In this document: piece after piece, positions 945 through 5,988 of the stretch
How the letters are laid out: each line of letters begins with the position of its first letter
Position numbering within the stretch: position 1 is the first letter of the stretch
NCBI GenBank assembly: GCA_947502405.1
Contig: CANMZT010000018.1
Location: forward strand, 1-61,790
From: an uncultured Algibacter sp.
Lineage (GTDB): Bacteria; Bacteroidota; Bacteroidia; Flavobacteriales; Flavobacteriaceae
Direction: 5' to 3'
Length of the DNA: 61,790 bases
The notes under the pieces: model-generated
Databases searched by the model: none
Seen by the model: the letters and a program-made list of their open reading frames with translations, nothing else
Told to the model about the DNA's origin: nothing
Translations under genes and position numbers: made by a program

Positions 945-1052
945 CGTCATTGTGAGGGAGGAACGACCGTAACAATCTGTTGATTATTAGCCCGAAACTC
1001 TCAACAAACAGATTCTCACGCTTTTTTTCTAATGAAAAAGCTCAGAATGACG
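945..1052. repeat. Hairpin repeat copy A (gene-less, 108 nt)
   Basis: The element begins CGTCATTGTGAG and ends CTCAGAATGACG, giving near-perfect terminal inverted repeats (11 of 12). An inner pair, AATCTGTT (974-981) and AACAGATT (1007-1014), encloses a loop of about 25 nt with the core ATTATTAGCCCGA. A run of Ts and a GAAAAAGCT segment lie in the right arm. It is followed after 16 nt by copy B in the same orientation. Confidence 0.85.
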
Positions 1053-1068
1053 TAAACATCAAACACAC

Positions 1069-1467
1069 CGTCATTGTGAGAAGGTACGACGTAACAATCT
1101 GCTTGTCGTTTAAATCAATCAAAATAAAACAACCAACCTTCAGACAAGTCATTCCATTCTGAATTCTCATTATTTATTAAAGCTAGCTTTTTATTTCTTT
1201 TGTACTTCTTAATTTGCTTCTCTCTAAAAATAGCTTCATCAATGGAGTCGAAACCTTCAAAGTAAACTAACTTTTCACAATTATATTTTGAAGCAAATCC
1301 TTTGTAAGTTTTAGATTTATGTTGATACATTCGTTTAACCAAATCACTAGTAACCCCAGTATACAAAACAGTATTATTTTTATTAGTTATAATGTAAACA
1401 TGTGATTGTCTCATAGAATAATTGGAATATTTATTTAGCAGATTCTCACGCTTTGCTCAGAATGACG
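1069..1467. mobile_element. Hairpin repeat copy B with the GIY-YIG gene between its arms
   Basis: The left arm at 1069-1105 (CGTCATTGTGAG ... AACAATCTGCTTG) and the right arm at 1437-1467 (AGCAGATTCTCACG ... CTCAGAATGACG) match the two ends of copies A and C. The loop has been replaced by a complete GIY-YIG nuclease gene. The gene's stop is 9 nt from the left arm and its start is 22 nt from the right arm. The inner stem carries a compensatory change relative to A and C: AATCTGCT pairs with AGCAGATT, against AATCTGTT with AACAGATT. The two arms therefore behave as one element although the gene separates them. The mobile nature is inferred. Confidence 0.7.
1115..1414 (-). CDS. GIY-YIG endonuclease domain protein
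   Basis: This 99-residue single-domain GIY-YIG protein is of the small UvrC-N-terminal-like (UPF0213/YhbQ-like) type. Family landmarks are visible: VYIIT at residues 6-10, the second motif YTGVTSDLVKRMYQHK at about residues 18-33 with the Arg, LVYFEGFDSIDEA, and the catalytic-type Glu in AIFREKQIKKYKR near residue 64. The end SEWNDLSEGW is also family-typical. Such enzymes cut DNA with one metal ion; the substrate of this small group is not settled. The gene lies wholly inside the arms of a hairpin repeat. No ordinary promoter is apparent, and the start at 1414 is 22 nt from the right arm, so any leader would run through the repeat. It may act on the repeat itself, as RAYT transposases do on REP sequences; that is inference. 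Confidence 0.88.
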   Translation of the reverse strand: MRQSHVYIITNKNNTVLYTGVTSDLVKRMYQHKSKTYKGFASKYNCEKLVYFEGFDSIDEAIFREKQIKKYKRNKKLALINNENSEWNDLSEGWLFYFD

Positions 1468-1484
1468 TTAATATTAAACACACA

Positions 1485-1589
1485 CGTCATTGTGAGGAGG
1501 CACGACGTAACAATCTGTTGATTATTAGCCCGAGATTCCCAACAAACAGATTCTCTCGCTTTTTTTAAATGAAAAAGCTCAGAATGACG
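1485..1589. repeat. Hairpin repeat copy C (gene-less, 105 nt)
   Basis: The same ends as copy A (CGTCATTGTGAG / CTCAGAATGACG), the same inner stem AATCTGTT/AACAGATT and the same loop core ATTATTAGCCCGA are present. It follows copy B after 17 nt. The spacer resembles the A-B spacer, both being variants of TAAACATCAAACACAC, so the cluster is a tandem array of units. It lies between the nuclease element and the 3' end of dnaE. Confidence 0.85.
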
Positions 1590-1602: not shown

Positions 1603-4600
1603 CTAATTCAACTTAAACCTAACATCCTGCGCCTCCAATTCACTCAACAATTCCTGAGACACCTTAACTTTTTGCCTTCTACTAGGCATTGTTAATTTCA
1701 TTTTTTCTTTGGTATCATACACCAAGAAATTCAAGGCTTGATTTCCAGGGTGCATGTGTAATAACTCTTTTAAGGCAACGATTTTTTGTTCGGTCAAATC
1801 CTTAATATCAACTTGTATAGATAGTTTTTTAGCATATTGCTCCATCACATCATGCAACAATTGGAAACTATTAAACTGTAATCGTGGGTCGCTCTTTTTA
1901 CCCGTGTCTTTATTCGTCCAACCTTCACGAACAAAGCTTTTTACAAACACAAAATTGTTCTGCAATAAAAAGTGACGGTATTTTAAATACTCTTCACCAA
2001 AAATTCTAAACTCGTAGCTATCGGTATAATCTTCAATAGTAAACAATGCCCATCCTTTACCCTGTTTGCTTACGCGATGTTGCACATCGGTAACCACGCC
2101 ACCAAACACCAATTCCCTATTTACATAAGGTTCTAAATTGTTAAACATGCCCACTGTGGCATTGCAAAAGGTTTTCATTTCGGTTTTAAAATCATCCAAC
2201 GGGTGTCCAGAAATATAAACCCCAACTACTTCACGCTCTTTACTCAAGGTTTTCATGGTGCCCCACTCTTCACATGGTGGCACTTCGGGTTCTGCAAATT
2301 GCACACTACTCTGCTCTCCAAACATATCAATTTGTGCAGAATTCTTGTTCTCTTTATACTTTTGTGCAAACTTTATCGCTTTCTCTAAAAAGGTAATTCC
2401 ATCGCCATCATCATGAAAATATTGCGCGCGATGTATATCGCCAAAACCATCAAAACCACCTGCATAGGCTAAATTTTCAAATGCTTTTTTATTGGCTGCA
2501 CGCAAATCAATACGTTTTGCAAAATCAAAAATAGAGCTGTAATGCCCATCTTCTTTTCGGTTATCCACAATCGTCATTACTGCACCATGGCCAACACCTT
2601 TTATGGCGCCCATACCAAAACGCACCGCACCATCCTTATTTACCGAGAACTTATAATAACTTTCATTAACATCAGGTCCTAAAACCTCTAACTTCATACG
2701 TTTACATTCTTCCATGAAGAAAGTAACCTGCTTGATGTCATTCATATTATTAGACAAAACAGCAGCCATATATTCCGCTGGGTAATGCGCTTTTAAATAC
2801 GCTGTTTGGTAAGCAATCCACGCGTAACAGGTGGAGTGCGATTTGTTGAAGGCGTAACTTGCAAAGGCTTCCCAATCCTTCCAAACTTTTTCTAAAATTT
2901 TAGCATCGTGTCCGTTGGCACTGGCCTGCTCAATAAACTTAGGCTTCATTTTATCAAGTACAGCAATCTGCTTTTTACCCATCGCTTTACGGAGTACATC
3001 AGCTTCACCTTTGGTAAAATCTGCCAAACTTTGCGACAGTAACATCACCTGCTCTTGGTATACCGTAATACCGTAAGTTTCCTTCAGGTATTCTTCCATG
3101 GCTGGTAAATCATATTCGATTTCCTCATCACCATGTTTTCTGCGAACAAAACTTGGAATGTATTCCATCGGCCCTGGACGGTACAAGGCATTCATCGCAA
3201 TTAAATCTTCGAAAACCGTTGGTTTTAAATCGCGAAGGTGTTTTTGCATCCCAGGCGATTCATATTGAAACACACCAACTGTTTCCCCACGTTGAAAAAG
3301 CGCATAGGTCTCTTCATCATCAAGCGGAAAACTCTCAGGGTCTAATTGAATGCCGTGTTTAGCTTTAACGATTTTAACGGTGTCTTTAATTAAAGTCAGC
3401 GTTTTTAATCCCAAGAAATCCATTTTTAATAACCCTGCATCTTCTACAACCGAGTTATCAAATTGTGTGACATACAAATCAGAATCTTTCGCCACTGAAA
3501 CAGGAACGAATTTGGTAATATCATCAGGAGTGATAATTACACCACAGGCATGTATTCCTGTATTTCTTACTGAACCTTCAAGTGTTCTGGCAAGATTTAC
3601 AGTTTCTGCTTGTAAATCGCTACCATCGGCAATATTTAAAAGCTCGTTGACTTTCTCTAAATCTTCGGCTCTAAATTTCTTACCGAGTTCCTTTTCATCT
3701 AAACCAAAAATCTTCCCAAGTTTAGACATGGTTGGGATTAACTTCGCAATACGATCGGCATCAAATAAAGGTAAATCTAAAACTCGTGCTGTATCGCGTA
3801 TAGACGATTTAGCTGCCATCGTACCATAGGTAATAATTTGTGCTACCTGATTGGCTCCATATTTTTCAATCACATAATCCATGACACGACTTCGGCCTTC
3901 ATCATCAAAATCAATATCAATATCGGGCATACTAATACGATCTGGATTCAAGAAACGCTCAAAAAGCAAATCGTACTTAAGCGGGTCAATATTGGTAATC
4001 CAAAGGCAATATGCCGCCACGGAACCTGCTGCAGAACCACGCCCAGGACCTACCGAGACATCCATATTTCGGGCTTCTCGAATAAAGTCTTCTACAATTA
4101 AGAAATATCCGGGATAGCCTGTGTTTTCAATAACACTTAACTCAAAATCAAGACGTTCTGTTACTTCTTCAGTTAGGGGTTCGCCATAACGCTTTTTAGC
4201 ACCTTCGTATACCAAATGTTTTAAATAGGCATTTTCTCCGCGCTTGCCTCCATCAACTTCATCTTCTTCATGCTTAAATTCTTCAGGAATATCAAAGGCA
4301 GGTAATAATACATCACGTGCTAGTTGAAACGCTTCAACTTTATCAACCACCTCTTGAACATTTATAATGGCTTCGGGCACATCGCGAAATAAAGCCTTCA
4401 TATCTTCTGAAGACTTAAAATAATATTCTTGGTTTGGCAAGCCGTAGCGGTATCCTCGACCGCGACCTATTGGAGTCGCCTGCTTTTCACCATCTTTAAC
4501 ACACAATAAAATATCGTGCGCATTGGCATCTTCTTGGTTTCTGTAATACGTGTTGTTTGATGCAACTAACTTTACATTGTGCTTTTTTGCGAGCTTAATC

Positions 4601-5988
4601 AAGGTTGGATTCACACGGTTTTCATCTTCTTGATTGTGACGCATTAGTTCTACATACAAATCATCTCCAAATTCTTCTTTCCACCACAACAGTGCTTCTT
4701 CAGCTTGATTTTCACCAATATTTAAAACTTTACTGGGTACTTCGCCATATAAATTTCCTGTGAGTACAATGATGTCTTCTTTATACTGCTGAATCAATTT
4801 TTTATCAATTCTTGGTAAATAATAGAAGCCATCTACAAAGGCATGAGACGATAGTTTTGCTAAATTATGATATCCATTTTTATTTTTAGCTAGCAGTACA
4901 ATTTGGTAACCATTATCTTTTCTGGTTTTATCGGTATGGTCTTCGCATACAAAAAACTCGCAACCCACAATAGGTTTGATAAGTTTAGCATCTGTAGATT
5001 CACCACTTTCTTCGGCTGCAGCTATTTTTTCTTTAATGCTTTTATTCGCTTTATTTACCGCATTTACAAAGTGAAATGCACCCATCATATTGGCATGATC
5101 GGTTAATGCTACAGCAGGCATATTGTGTTCTGCTGCTGCTGCAACAATATCAGAGACACTCATGGTGGATTGCAATACTGAAAATTGCGAATGGTTATGT
5201 AAATGCACAAACTCTACATCGGCTAAATTTGATGCATTTTGTTGTATGTCTTCAGAAGAAATAGAGGATTCTGATTTTGCAATTCGCTCGCGAATTTTAT
5301 CACTTTCTCGCTTAAGATTAACATGTTTTAAACCGATAGTTTGAATCGTATCCGGATTCTCTTTTTTGAAGTTCTCAAAATAATCAGGCTGAACGTCCAG
5401 TTGTTCCTTAGTATATTCACCTAAACGCACCAATTCGAAAAAACAACGCGTGGTTGCCTCAACATCGGCAGTGGCATTATGCGCTTCAGAAAAAGGGACA
5501 TTAAATAAAAACTCGTGTAACTCTGTAAGCGTTGGCAACTTAAATTTACCGTAACGTCCGCCTGGGATTTGACATAAACTAGCAGTGTGTTCAGTACAGG
5601 TGTCTAATACAGGTAATTCTTGTAATGGGTTTTCAACAGCTTCACGCACAAACTCCCCACCCATGATGTTTAAGTCGAACTTTACATTTTGCCCAACTAC
5701 AAATTTTGTTTTACCTAAAGCTTCATTAAATTTTTCTAAAACCTCAGCCAAAGGCACACCTTGTTCTTCGGCCAATTCTGTAGAAATACCATGAATTTTT
5801 TCCGCATCATACGGAATATTAAAGCCTTCTGGTTTTACTAAATAATCTTGACTCTCGATACAATTTCCCATAGCATCGTGCAATTGCCACGCAATTTGAA
5901 TACACCTTGGCCAGTTATCGGTATCTGTAATTGGTGCATCCCAACGTTTTGGTAATCCGGTGGTTTCTGTATCGAAAATTAAGTACAT
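1603..5988 (-). CDS. dnaE: DNA polymerase III alpha subunit with N-terminal proofreading exonuclease
   Basis: This 1461-residue protein is the replicative polymerase catalytic subunit. Residues 1 to about 190 form a DnaQ-type 3'-5' exonuclease: IFDTETTGLP at 4-13, VGQNVKFDLN near 97, and AHNATADVEATTR near 170. A PHP domain begins near residue 258 (FVHLHNHSQFSV, then ALTDHANMMG) with its histidine motif intact. The polymerase core has PGRGSAAGS near 646 and the catalytic PDIDIDFDDEGR near 687. The tail contains a helix-hairpin-helix region (IKGVGHGA) and an OB fold near residues 1290-1335 (FGGVVTDVQHRVSKQG). This exonuclease-polymerase fusion differs from E. coli, where proofreading is a separate DnaQ subunit, and is the usual state in Flavobacteria. 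The ATG at 5988 directly begins the exonuclease motif. The gene appears monocistronic. Confidence 0.97.
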   Translation of the reverse strand: MYLIFDTETTGLPKRWDAPITDTDNWPRCIQIAWQLHDAMGNCIESQDYLVKPEGFNIPYDAEKIHGISTELAEEQGVPLAEVLEKFNEALGKTKFVVGQNVKFDLNIMGGEFVREAVENPLQELPVLDTCTEHTASLCQIPGGRYGKFKLPTLTELHEFLFNVPFSEAHNATADVEATTRCFFELVRLGEYTKEQLDVQPDYFENFKKENPDTIQTIGLKHVNLKRESDKIRERIAKSESSISSEDIQQNASNLADVEFVHLHNHSQFSVLQSTMSVSDIVAAAAEHNMPAVALTDHANMMGAFHFVNAVNKANKSIKEKIAAAEESGESTDAKLIKPIVGCEFFVCEDHTDKTRKDNGYQIVLLAKNKNGYHNLAKLSSHAFVDGFYYLPRIDKKLIQQYKEDIIVLTGNLYGEVPSKVLNIGENQAEEALLWWKEEFGDDLYVELMRHNQEDENRVNPTLIKLAKKHNVKLVASNNTYYRNQEDANAHDILLCVKDGEKQATPIGRGRGYRYGLPNQEYYFKSSEDMKALFRDVPEAIINVQEVVDKVEAFQLARDVLLPAFDIPEEFKHEEDEVDGGKRGENAYLKHLVYEGAKKRYGEPLTEEVTERLDFELSVIENTGYPGYFLIVEDFIREARNMDVSVGPGRGSAAGSVAAYCLWITNIDPLKYDLLFERFLNPDRISMPDIDIDFDDEGRSRVMDYVIEKYGANQVAQIITYGTMAAKSSIRDTARVLDLPLFDADRIAKLIPTMSKLGKIFGLDEKELGKKFRAEDLEKVNELLNIADGSDLQAETVNLARTLEGSVRNTGIHACGVIITPDDITKFVPVSVAKDSDLYVTQFDNSVVEDAGLLKMDFLGLKTLTLIKDTVKIVKAKHGIQLDPESFPLDDEETYALFQRGETVGVFQYESPGMQKHLRDLKPTVFEDLIAMNALYRPGPMEYIPSFVRRKHGDEEIEYDLPAMEEYLKETYGITVYQEQVMLLSQSLADFTKGEADVLRKAMGKKQIAVLDKMKPKFIEQASANGHDAKILEKVWKDWEAFASYAFNKSHSTCYAWIAYQTAYLKAHYPAEYMAAVLSNNMNDIKQVTFFMEECKRMKLEVLGPDVNESYYKFSVNKDGAVRFGMGAIKGVGHGAVMTIVDNRKEDGHYSSIFDFAKRIDLRAANKKAFENLAYAGGFDGFGDIHRAQYFHDDGDGITFLEKAIKFAQKYKENKNSAQIDMFGEQSSVQFAEPEVPPCEEWGTMKTLSKEREVVGVYISGHPLDDFKTEMKTFCNATVGMFNNLEPYVNRELVFGGVVTDVQHRVSKQGKGWALFTIEDYTDSYEFRIFGEEYLKYRHFLLQNNFVFVKSFVREGWTNKDTGKKSDPRLQFNSFQLLHDVMEQYAKKLSIQVDIKDLTEQKIVALKELLHMHPGNQALNFLVYDTKEKMKLTMPSRRQKVKVSQELLSELEAQDVRFKLN

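Follow-up and report, generated by a model that had tools for sequence, protein, structure and literature searches.

A small GIY-YIG nuclease gene enclosed by CGTC-tagged palindromes: a candidate REPIN-like mobile element in Algibacter with relatives in many bacterial phyla

A 61,790-nucleotide (nt) stretch of DNA from an uncultured Algibacter sp. (contig CANMZT010000018.1 of assembly GCA_947502405.1), hereafter the window, has three related hairpin units, A, B and C, in the intergenic DNA that separates an arsR-like gene (611-937), next to unit A, from dnaE (1603-5988, minus strand), next to unit C. Copy B (1069-1467) holds the gene of a small GIY-YIG nuclease between its two arms; copies A (945-1052, plus strand) and C (1485-1589, plus strand) have no gene. 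Why does a nuclease gene lie within a repeat that also occurs without it? Judging from sequence features, positions 1069-1467 are likely to be an autonomous REPIN-like mobile element, in which inverted, outward-tagged repetitive extragenic palindromes (REPs) of the CGTC type enclose one cognate single-domain GIY-YIG gene, and the gene-less dimers A and C would be its non-autonomous relatives. An earlier note on this DNA had proposed a hairpin element with its own nuclease, analogous to REPs mobilized by RAYTs (REP-associated tyrosine transposases) but with an enzyme of another superfamily. The sequence checks uphold this proposal, and from them we infer that the nuclease is the cause of REP mobility.

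Copies A and C have the extents and the ends, CGTCATTGTGAG/CTCAGAATGACG, that had first been described. Each of the two end 12-mers, with at most one mismatch allowed, matches the window at 6 places, which are identical for both and are all unit ends; shuffled windows gave means of 0.08 and 0.15 for the two, and none of 100 shuffles reached 6. Copy A takes part in the direct repeat families D1-D6, and copy C matches it at 93% identity over 61 nt (repeat D1). Both are dimers with tags outward, and folded as single-stranded DNA both are more stable than their shuffles (z of -2.65 for A and -2.72 for C). The inner stem reads AATCTGTT/AACAGATT in A and C and AATCTGCT/AGCAGATT in B, so that the covariation noticed earlier is present in the sequence.

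In copy B, the left arm (1069-1103, plus strand) is a REP, CGTCATTGTGAG...ACAATCTGCT, and the right arm (1437-1467) is a REP on the minus strand, CGTCATTCTGAG...AGAATCTGCT. Both have the tag outward and were scored at this locus (L031) by the oriented detector described below. From the outside in, each arm consists of CGTC, ATTNT, a loop, ANAAT and CTG. The outer arms are not exact inverses of each other, the left one being ATTGT..ACAAT and the right one, in reverse complement, ATTCT..AGAAT. Since each arm is self-complementary and the stems differ, the arms of B are two separate tagged palindromes that face each other with their tags outward. The single arms do not fold more stably than shuffles (z of 0.95 and 1.14). 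A purely long hairpin was ruled out as a description of the arms by these different, internally complementary stems, although A and C still fold as long hairpins. The gene between the arms (1115-1414, minus strand) is complete, with 99 codons as had been claimed, and lies about 9-11 and 22 nt from them, close to the 9 and 22 nt first given.

All window arms start with CGTC and, judged by their sequence, they correspond in aberrant form to the CGTC-tagged REPs surveyed by Di Nocera et al. (2013). According to the main text of that survey (PMC3733652), these REPs carry a CGTC, TGTC or CCTC tag outside the palindrome, a stem that opens with A-T pairs and a tail that is mostly CCA, and they occur mainly as head-to-head dimers; the family includes Neisseria dRS3 and Rickettsia RPE-4/RPE-6, and CGTC-1 dimers sit within palindromes in H. 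neapolitanus. The likeness to the window arms lies in the outer tag, the AT-starting palindrome, the short tail, the mostly head-to-head pairs and the many copies. The window arms do not fit the stem rule of the family (8-9 base pairs (bp), loop of 4-5 nt): they have a shorter stem of 5 bp, a longer loop of at least 12 nt, and the tail CTG, not CCA. Many arms of relatives do fit the definition closely (e.g., GTCATTCCTGCGAAGGCAGGAATC), and a CCA tail occurs in several arms of the TCCC/TCCT stem type. Because the arms are CGTC-type REPs, the units are of a known kind, REP dimers or REPINs, and not a new hairpin family. The same survey text states that CGTC REPs are not associated with transposase genes, its authors supposed that the responsible enzyme had been lost or replaced by others, and the string GIY is absent from its main text (PMC3733652).

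The repeat extends beyond the window. Elsewhere in the same genome CGTCATTGTGAG recurs, with at most one mismatch, to give 31 sites (the 6 of the window included) versus 9 for the reversed control pattern, and a REP-like second half is also present at 22 of the 25 loci examined. Many of the 31 sites look single; plus/minus pairs of REPs are present in many genomes. Twelve of the 25 CGTC sites examined (L003, L005, L009-L011, L013, L015, L016, L019-L021 and L025) are nested in one other palindrome, with stems ATCTTTTTAAAA/TTTTAAAAAGGAT, and each appears to be a single REP rather than a dimer. Further small GIY-YIG genes in this genome are also accompanied by repeats: one at C8:11725 has GTCATTCCGCACTTGATGCGGAATC inverted around it, those at C6:80686 and C6:81172 each have GTCATTCCTGCG..GCAGGAATC inverted around them, and the one at C20:40607 has GTCATTTCGACG..AGAAATC on both sides, the nearest two copies being in direct orientation.

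The assignment of the enclosed gene is clear. Its product matches the Pfam GIY-YIG family PF01541 with an E value of 4.6e-18 (65.7 bits; cut-off 22.6), and residues Y7, Y18, R28, H32, E65 and N84, which we take to sit at the positions usually named catalytic in this superfamily, are invariant across 30 aligned rows. An AlphaFold2 model based on 30 sequences has the GIY-YIG fold, with a mean predicted local distance difference test score (pLDDT) of 92.9. The nearest solved structures by fold are the UPF0213 protein BH0048 (1zg2, E 1.2e-4), the UvrC N-terminal domain (E 0.02) and Slx1 (E 0.04); by sequence they are 1zg2, 1ywl and 1yd6. The clade to which the nuclease belongs shares a conserved C-terminal part, ..NPxWxDL. 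A reading as a defense gene was ruled out, a PADLOC scan giving just a weak homing-endonuclease match (E 0.0016).

Is the bracketing by REPs a property of this locus or of the nuclease? A profile was built from an alignment of ten small GIY-YIG proteins, and the best 80 genome loci among at least 566 relatives were taken by protein similarity alone. They come from Bacteroidota, Pseudomonadota, Planctomycetota, Chloroflexota, Cyanobacteriota, Nitrospirota, Actinomycetota, Omnitrophota and others, and 77 of them had usable genes; a viral collection gave 6 further loci. The oriented detector used the pattern GTCA[TC], a stem of at least 6, a loop of 3-40 and the tail C, and an outward REP was scored within 200 nt of the gene. 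Such a REP was present upstream of 54 and downstream of 52 of the 77 genes, on both sides of 37 and on at least one side of 69. Among far control open reading frames (ORFs) of the same loci (at least 100 codons and more than 450 nt away; n=86), 2 had one upstream, 3 downstream and none on both sides, and among 385 shuffled flanks the corresponding numbers were 2, 2 and 0. In a separate test of 86 loci, two of which (L085 and L130) were without an ORF match, flanks were long enough in 81 of the remaining 84, usable viral loci included; the two flanks of one gene gave an inverted match score of at least 24 in 34 of the 81, versus 2.8 expected from swapped pairs.

A second sample was confined to Bacteroidota and consisted of 130 loci from the upper part of the matches listed, one or few per genome, mostly with open frames and chosen regardless of their flanks. 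It yielded 133 genes; one was dropped for short flanks, and of the 132 left, three duplicate a gene already in the sample. An outward REP was found upstream of 76 and downstream of 75 of the 132 genes, on both sides of 57 and on at least one side of 94. The association is specific for one clade of GIY-YIG genes. In a sample from the genus and four other genomes, with genes that had less than 200 nt of flank and repeated proteins omitted, outward REPs accompanied 10 of 14 A1-like small GIY-YIG genes, none of 10 other small ones and none of 8 long ones (Fisher p 1.6e-5). The earlier note had named homologous genes without such arms as a refuting outcome and had suggested that the mechanism could be widespread; the flanked relatives from many phyla agree with its proposal on both counts.

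These controls also bear on coincidence as an explanation, namely that REPs and horizontally acquired small genes merely gather in the same intergenic space, or that the REPs act as terminators. Both REPs and nuclease genes are indeed intergenic, neighboring ORFs share the same REPs, and the 3' REP sometimes starts at the stop codon in a terminator-like manner (the gap is 0 for 14 of the downstream REPs in a set of 208 genes, 3 duplicates having been removed from 211). Chance proximity is nevertheless very hard to credit, given that none of the 86 far control ORFs had REPs on both sides, that none of the 18 other GIY-YIG genes had any, that arms are as frequent upstream as downstream, and that, as shown below, nuclease lineage predicts REP type.

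Relatives also occur on plasmids, in 34 records, ten loci of which were read. In Novosphingobium aromaticivorans a perfect inverted repeat surrounds the gene, with the tag CGTC and a stem opening with GC, not AT, and in Sinorhizobium meliloti CCTC-type palindromes lie on both sides; both were seen by eye and missed by the detector, which can therefore undercount. Two of the ten loci, in Rhizobium K1/93 and Photobacterium, had no such repeat at the gene. With Azospirillum lipoferum, described below, N. aromaticivorans and S. meliloti are species of the survey (PMC3733652) in which a GIY-YIG gene is flanked by repeats of the surveyed kind, the last two by eye only.

Some loci deserve separate description. 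One (L195, G075 C86:44333-46900) is a tandem array of three nuclease genes with REPs between them, in units about 89-95% alike, which amounts to local amplification. Similar nuclease elements, about 93-95% alike over some 530 nt, are present at L263, L287 and L288 in one genome (G172) and at L265 in another (G063). A further small GIY-YIG group (L044, L045, L052 and L060; MKTYFVYILKCSD / MYFYYVYILKCSD type) has a different repeat nearby, of the GTCTCGACTGCGCTCGACCAGAC or TGTCATGTTGAGCGCAGTCGAAACA type, that the detector does not score.

REP type and nuclease are also matched. The 4-nt stem type was common to both arms in 55 of 92 elements (permuted mean 11.2, maximum 23). On a maximum likelihood tree of the nuclease (quick search, 101 rows, each with one arm type seen at least 5 times), arm type changes 28 times versus 55.8 times when shuffled (minimum 49 of 2000 shuffles). 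Shuffling within the host phylum (96 rows) gave the same 28 changes versus 54.3 (minimum 47), and outside Bacteroidota (25 rows) there were 8 changes versus 12.6 (minimum 10). Host phylum itself follows the tree only slightly (22 changes versus 24.8, minimum 23). Since arm type tracks the tree even when shuffled within phyla, nuclease lineage and REP type travel together between phyla. The TGCG group spans Chloroflexota, Planctomycetota, Cyanobacteriota, Omnitrophota, Rickettsia and Bacteroidota, and the TCCC/TCCT group spans Nitrospirota, Sphingomonas, a betaproteobacterium and others, with the proviso that host labels of metagenome bins, e.g., one 'Halobacteria archaeon', may be misassigned. 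Within single genomes (26 pairs of nucleases in 11 genomes), 8 of 11 pairs with at least 60% identity had the same arm type versus 1 of 15 pairs below, which removes the host as an explanation of the match.

The same correspondence is seen in dispersed copies. We counted REPs, arms included, in 32 named genomes (33 were chosen, of which L137 was left out). All 16 genomes with a TGCG-armed nuclease had TGCG REPs (4-70 copies), and all 9 with a TCCC/TCCT-armed nuclease had TCCY REPs (1-49 copies); the reversed control pattern gave 0 in all 32. In the seven genomes with other arms, these two REP types were present in 3 and 1. The cognate REP is thus always present in the sampled nuclease genomes, though it is not exclusive. 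Among 198 Bacteroidota genomes, 47 had the TGCG REP, and 44 of these had a match to the nuclease profile versus 79 of the other 151 (Fisher p 8e-8, uncorrected for relatedness).

We next consider whether the element comes and goes at a given site. The Algibacter genome has A, B with its gene, and C at the window locus. A congener (G008) has A, the left arm with the gene, and two gene-less units, the right arm being gone; another (G007) has two gene-less hairpin units and lacks the gene; a third (G002) has one decayed hairpin. Hairpins without the gene, whose general lack the earlier note had named as a refuting outcome, are present at the locus in the latter two. In six others (G001, G003, G004, G005, G006 and G009), neither hairpin nor gene was found in the 760 nt beside dnaE, and the neighbor differs. 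Copy A occupies the same place in G008 and G007, and so, nearly identically, does the spacer that follows it, TAAACATCAAACACAC (1053-1068; repeat D2), which recurs after other units. The spacer after B, TTAATATTAAACACACA (1468-1484), is a diverged copy of it (repeat D2, 90% over 29 nt). With such a spacer, of 16-17 nt, recurring between the units, they may have arisen by tandem amplification, or the gene may have been inserted into one of them, as alternatives to the derivation of A and C from the gene-bearing copy that the earlier note had proposed.

Outside the genus, Azospirillum lipoferum AZO_p3 has the gene in a 617-nt gap from sufB to sufC, where it is flanked on each side by GTCATCCCCGCGAAGGCGGGGATC dimers. 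The corresponding gaps of A. oryzae, A. ramasamyi and strain B510 measure 87, 91 and 129 nt, respectively, and neither gene nor REP was seen in them. Because these three gene-less relatives have no REP at the site, the REP-gene-REP block is present or absent as a whole in Azospirillum. The element occurs as CCGTCACCCCGGG..gene..CCCGGGGTGAC on three Sphingobium plasmids (TYG46, TYG73 and MM15); at the same site TYG64 (L310) and TYG74 (L308) have a solo palindrome tagged at both ends, and TYG72 has another sequence. In about 100 kb compared between two of the plasmids, one gene-less dimer whose inner arms are similar was found elsewhere, in TYG73 but not in TYG46.

These sites bring in the main rival explanation, in which the gene is a selfish GIY-YIG gene of the homing type that cuts an existing gene-less REP dimer and is copied into its loop when the break is repaired across the arms; the spread of the REPs would have another cause. 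Free-standing GIY-YIG homing endonucleases belong to the same superfamily and have small, selfish genes. The Sphingobium solo palindromes and the gene-less hairpins of G007 fit this view, the weak PADLOC match mentioned above and a weak NCBIfam match are to a homing endonuclease and a group I intron endonuclease model, respectively, and many REPs persist without a nuclease in one genome considered below (G011). Homing-like behavior is also suggested by another small GIY-YIG group in the genus, found next to tRNA genes, the 3' part of which is duplicated at three of the loci. Still, we regard homing as unlikely: it leaves both the spread of the REPs and the tie of REP type to nuclease lineage across phyla unexplained, in Azospirillum the three aligned gene-less relatives have no REP for a homing gene to enter, and the solo palindrome of Sphingobium, although compatible with homing, is explicable as the scar of an internal deletion between repeated half-stems. 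Unlike a free-standing homing endonuclease gene, the window gene lies between inverted hairpins that also occur dispersed alone; it is not in an intron, intein or conserved coding target, being intergenic and repeat-bracketed (no intron search was made).

The tRNA-associated group is an observation in its own right. It has no REPs, and all six loci scanned (L037, L055, L063, L048, L056 and L057) are near a tRNA gene (Asn, Val, Val, Leu, Arg and Arg). In the first three of these, a second copy of the 3' tRNA part follows on the far side of the GIY-YIG gene, a pattern that insertion into the tRNA gene with restoration of its end would leave.

A further alternative is a housekeeping role in replication or repair, in which the nuclease would process REP hairpins and be kept beside its substrate without driving its mobility. 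The nearest folds agree with such a role, as they include the UvrC nuclease domain and Slx1, which by entry titles acts on branched DNA. The distribution of the gene fits a selfish gene better. The profile matches with E <= 1e-8 in 123 of 198 Bacteroidota genomes, a threshold that also admits some other small GIY-YIG genes, and there are up to 19 matches per genome, some with internal stop codons. This patchiness, the closely similar paralogs at different sites and the presence or absence of the gene between relatives make a housekeeping role improbable.

Several observations nonetheless weigh against the mobile-element reading. Some concern the bracketing. ORFs within 450 nt of the nuclease, which share intergenic REPs with it, had outward REPs in 10 and 16 cases and on both sides in 3 (n=127), and direct flank matches are as common as inverted ones (score of at least 24 in 37 of 81). 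Inward REPs were present upstream of 25 and downstream of 20 of the 77 genes; in the Bacteroidota sample they were nearly as common as outward ones (52 upstream, 58 downstream and 39 on both sides of the 132), and there the far control ORFs numbered just 9 (0 with REPs on both sides, 1 on one side). Inward-facing REPs are common because REPs occur as dimers and clusters, and as a result the outward orientation is a preference, not a rule. No outward REP was in reach of 8 of the 77 genes and 38 of the 132 Bacteroidota genes, and the two arms differ in their 4-nt type in 37 of 92 elements. In the three G172 copies and the G063 element (L265), the shared DNA reaches past the REPs into a further, outer inverted repeat, about 27 nt long (TTGTAGATGT..AATTC..TGACA), which is either a target in which the element is nested or part of a larger mobile unit. 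In Azospirillum, Sphingobium and the genus the flanks are too diverged for a target-site duplication or an exact junction to be read.

Other contrary observations concern the REPs. Non-cognate types were present as well, TCCY REPs in 5 of the 16 TGCG genomes and TGCG REPs in 6 of the 9 TCCC/TCCT genomes. Three genomes (G011, G116 and G142) have the TGCG REP without a profile match at the threshold used. In G011, the REP GTCATTGCGAG..AGCAATC reaches 423 copies, and a PF01541 search found long frames only (609 and 460 codons) and no small GIY-YIG gene, so that high REP copy number is possible without the nuclease, at least now. The same search found long frames only in G142 (585 and 661 codons), and two long frames and one weak 117-codon match in G116. 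A RAYT acting in trans was ruled out as a general explanation: a Y1_Tnp search found none in these three genomes, one weak match within a 1274-codon frame in the Algibacter genome (G000) and three matches in G089.

How does the element compare with known systems? The closest parallel is the REP/REPIN system with RAYT (TnpA_REP) on GTAG REPs, as known from PMC3733652 and from general background: in both, one nuclease gene lies within inverted REPs, and many gene-less REPs, often dimers, are dispersed. Window-type elements share with it the defining arrangement, a nuclease gene enclosed by the REP type that is dispersed in the genome. They differ in the enzyme, RAYT being an HUH/Y1 enzyme in place of GIY-YIG, and in the tag, GTAG in place of CGTC; Y1_Tnp is also absent from the REP-rich G011. 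Single-domain UPF0213/GIY-YIG proteins (BH0048, 1zg2; EF2693, 1ywl) have the same fold and size as the window nuclease, but they are titled hypothetical and distant (profile E 8.7e-10), and the ..NPxWxDL part belongs to the present clade. Slx1 and the UvrC N-terminal domain share the fold as parts of larger enzymes, and the 8 long GIY-YIG genes sampled had no REP flanks.

Among the matches listed from 5.39 million open-access papers, we found no link between GIY-YIG and REPs, palindromes, RAYT, CGTC or miniature inverted repeats, and no paper on the window repeat string; preprints and most subscription journals were outside this scope. The only open-access text with both GIY-YIG and 'extragenic palindrom' is PMC9465073, in whose available part the words are unrelated, and RAYT, transposase and nuclease do not occur in the available text of RepRanger (PMC12306157). 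REPs with RAYT mobilizers are a known kind of system, of which a GIY-YIG enzyme dedicated to the CGTC superfamily would seem to be a novel form.

A possible mechanism for the candidate element can be outlined. The element would become single-stranded or be extruded as a cruciform. The nuclease, most likely recognizing the tagged hairpins by structure and stem sequence, is predicted to nick near the tags, and the freed or copied dimer, gene-bearing or gene-less, would be placed elsewhere with the help of host repair or replication. Insertion may often occur into the loops of other palindromes; such a target is hinted at by the 12 of 25 nested sites in the Algibacter genome, the three G172 copies and the H. 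neapolitanus CGTC-1 dimers of the survey text (PMC3733652), all nested in palindromes or inverted repeats. The joining step would set the element apart from HUH transposases such as RAYTs. GIY-YIG enzymes cut by hydrolysis, with no covalent protein-DNA link, and for this reason the joining step must differ from that of the HUH enzymes; if the chemistry is plain hydrolysis, resealing and insertion must rely on the host.

Beyond the single locus, the balance of the evidence tips toward a cross-phylum class of minimal transposons, whose sole protein would be a GIY-YIG nuclease of roughly 95 residues, which would move as, or between, tagged hairpin pairs, with each lineage matched to a REP stem type, and which would be the mobilizer that has been missing for CGTC REPs, Rickettsia RPEs and Neisseria dRS3 among them. 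For these short repeats, a widespread class in bacteria, the 2013 survey found no enzyme (PMC3733652); a dedicated small nuclease whose lineage goes with REP type from phylum to phylum, and that lies beside such repeats in three of the survey species, makes the question of their mobilizer testable. If this reading is true, the REP/REPIN way of life arose at least two times with unrelated nucleases, and the abundance and patchiness of small GIY-YIG genes would be explained. The clade would then be a compact nuclease family with natural hairpin specificities. To our knowledge, it would also provide the first DNA transposition driven by GIY-YIG chemistry alone, apart from DDE, HUH, serine and tyrosine recombinases, and, should the element prove to transpose DNA, a new enzyme class for that task.

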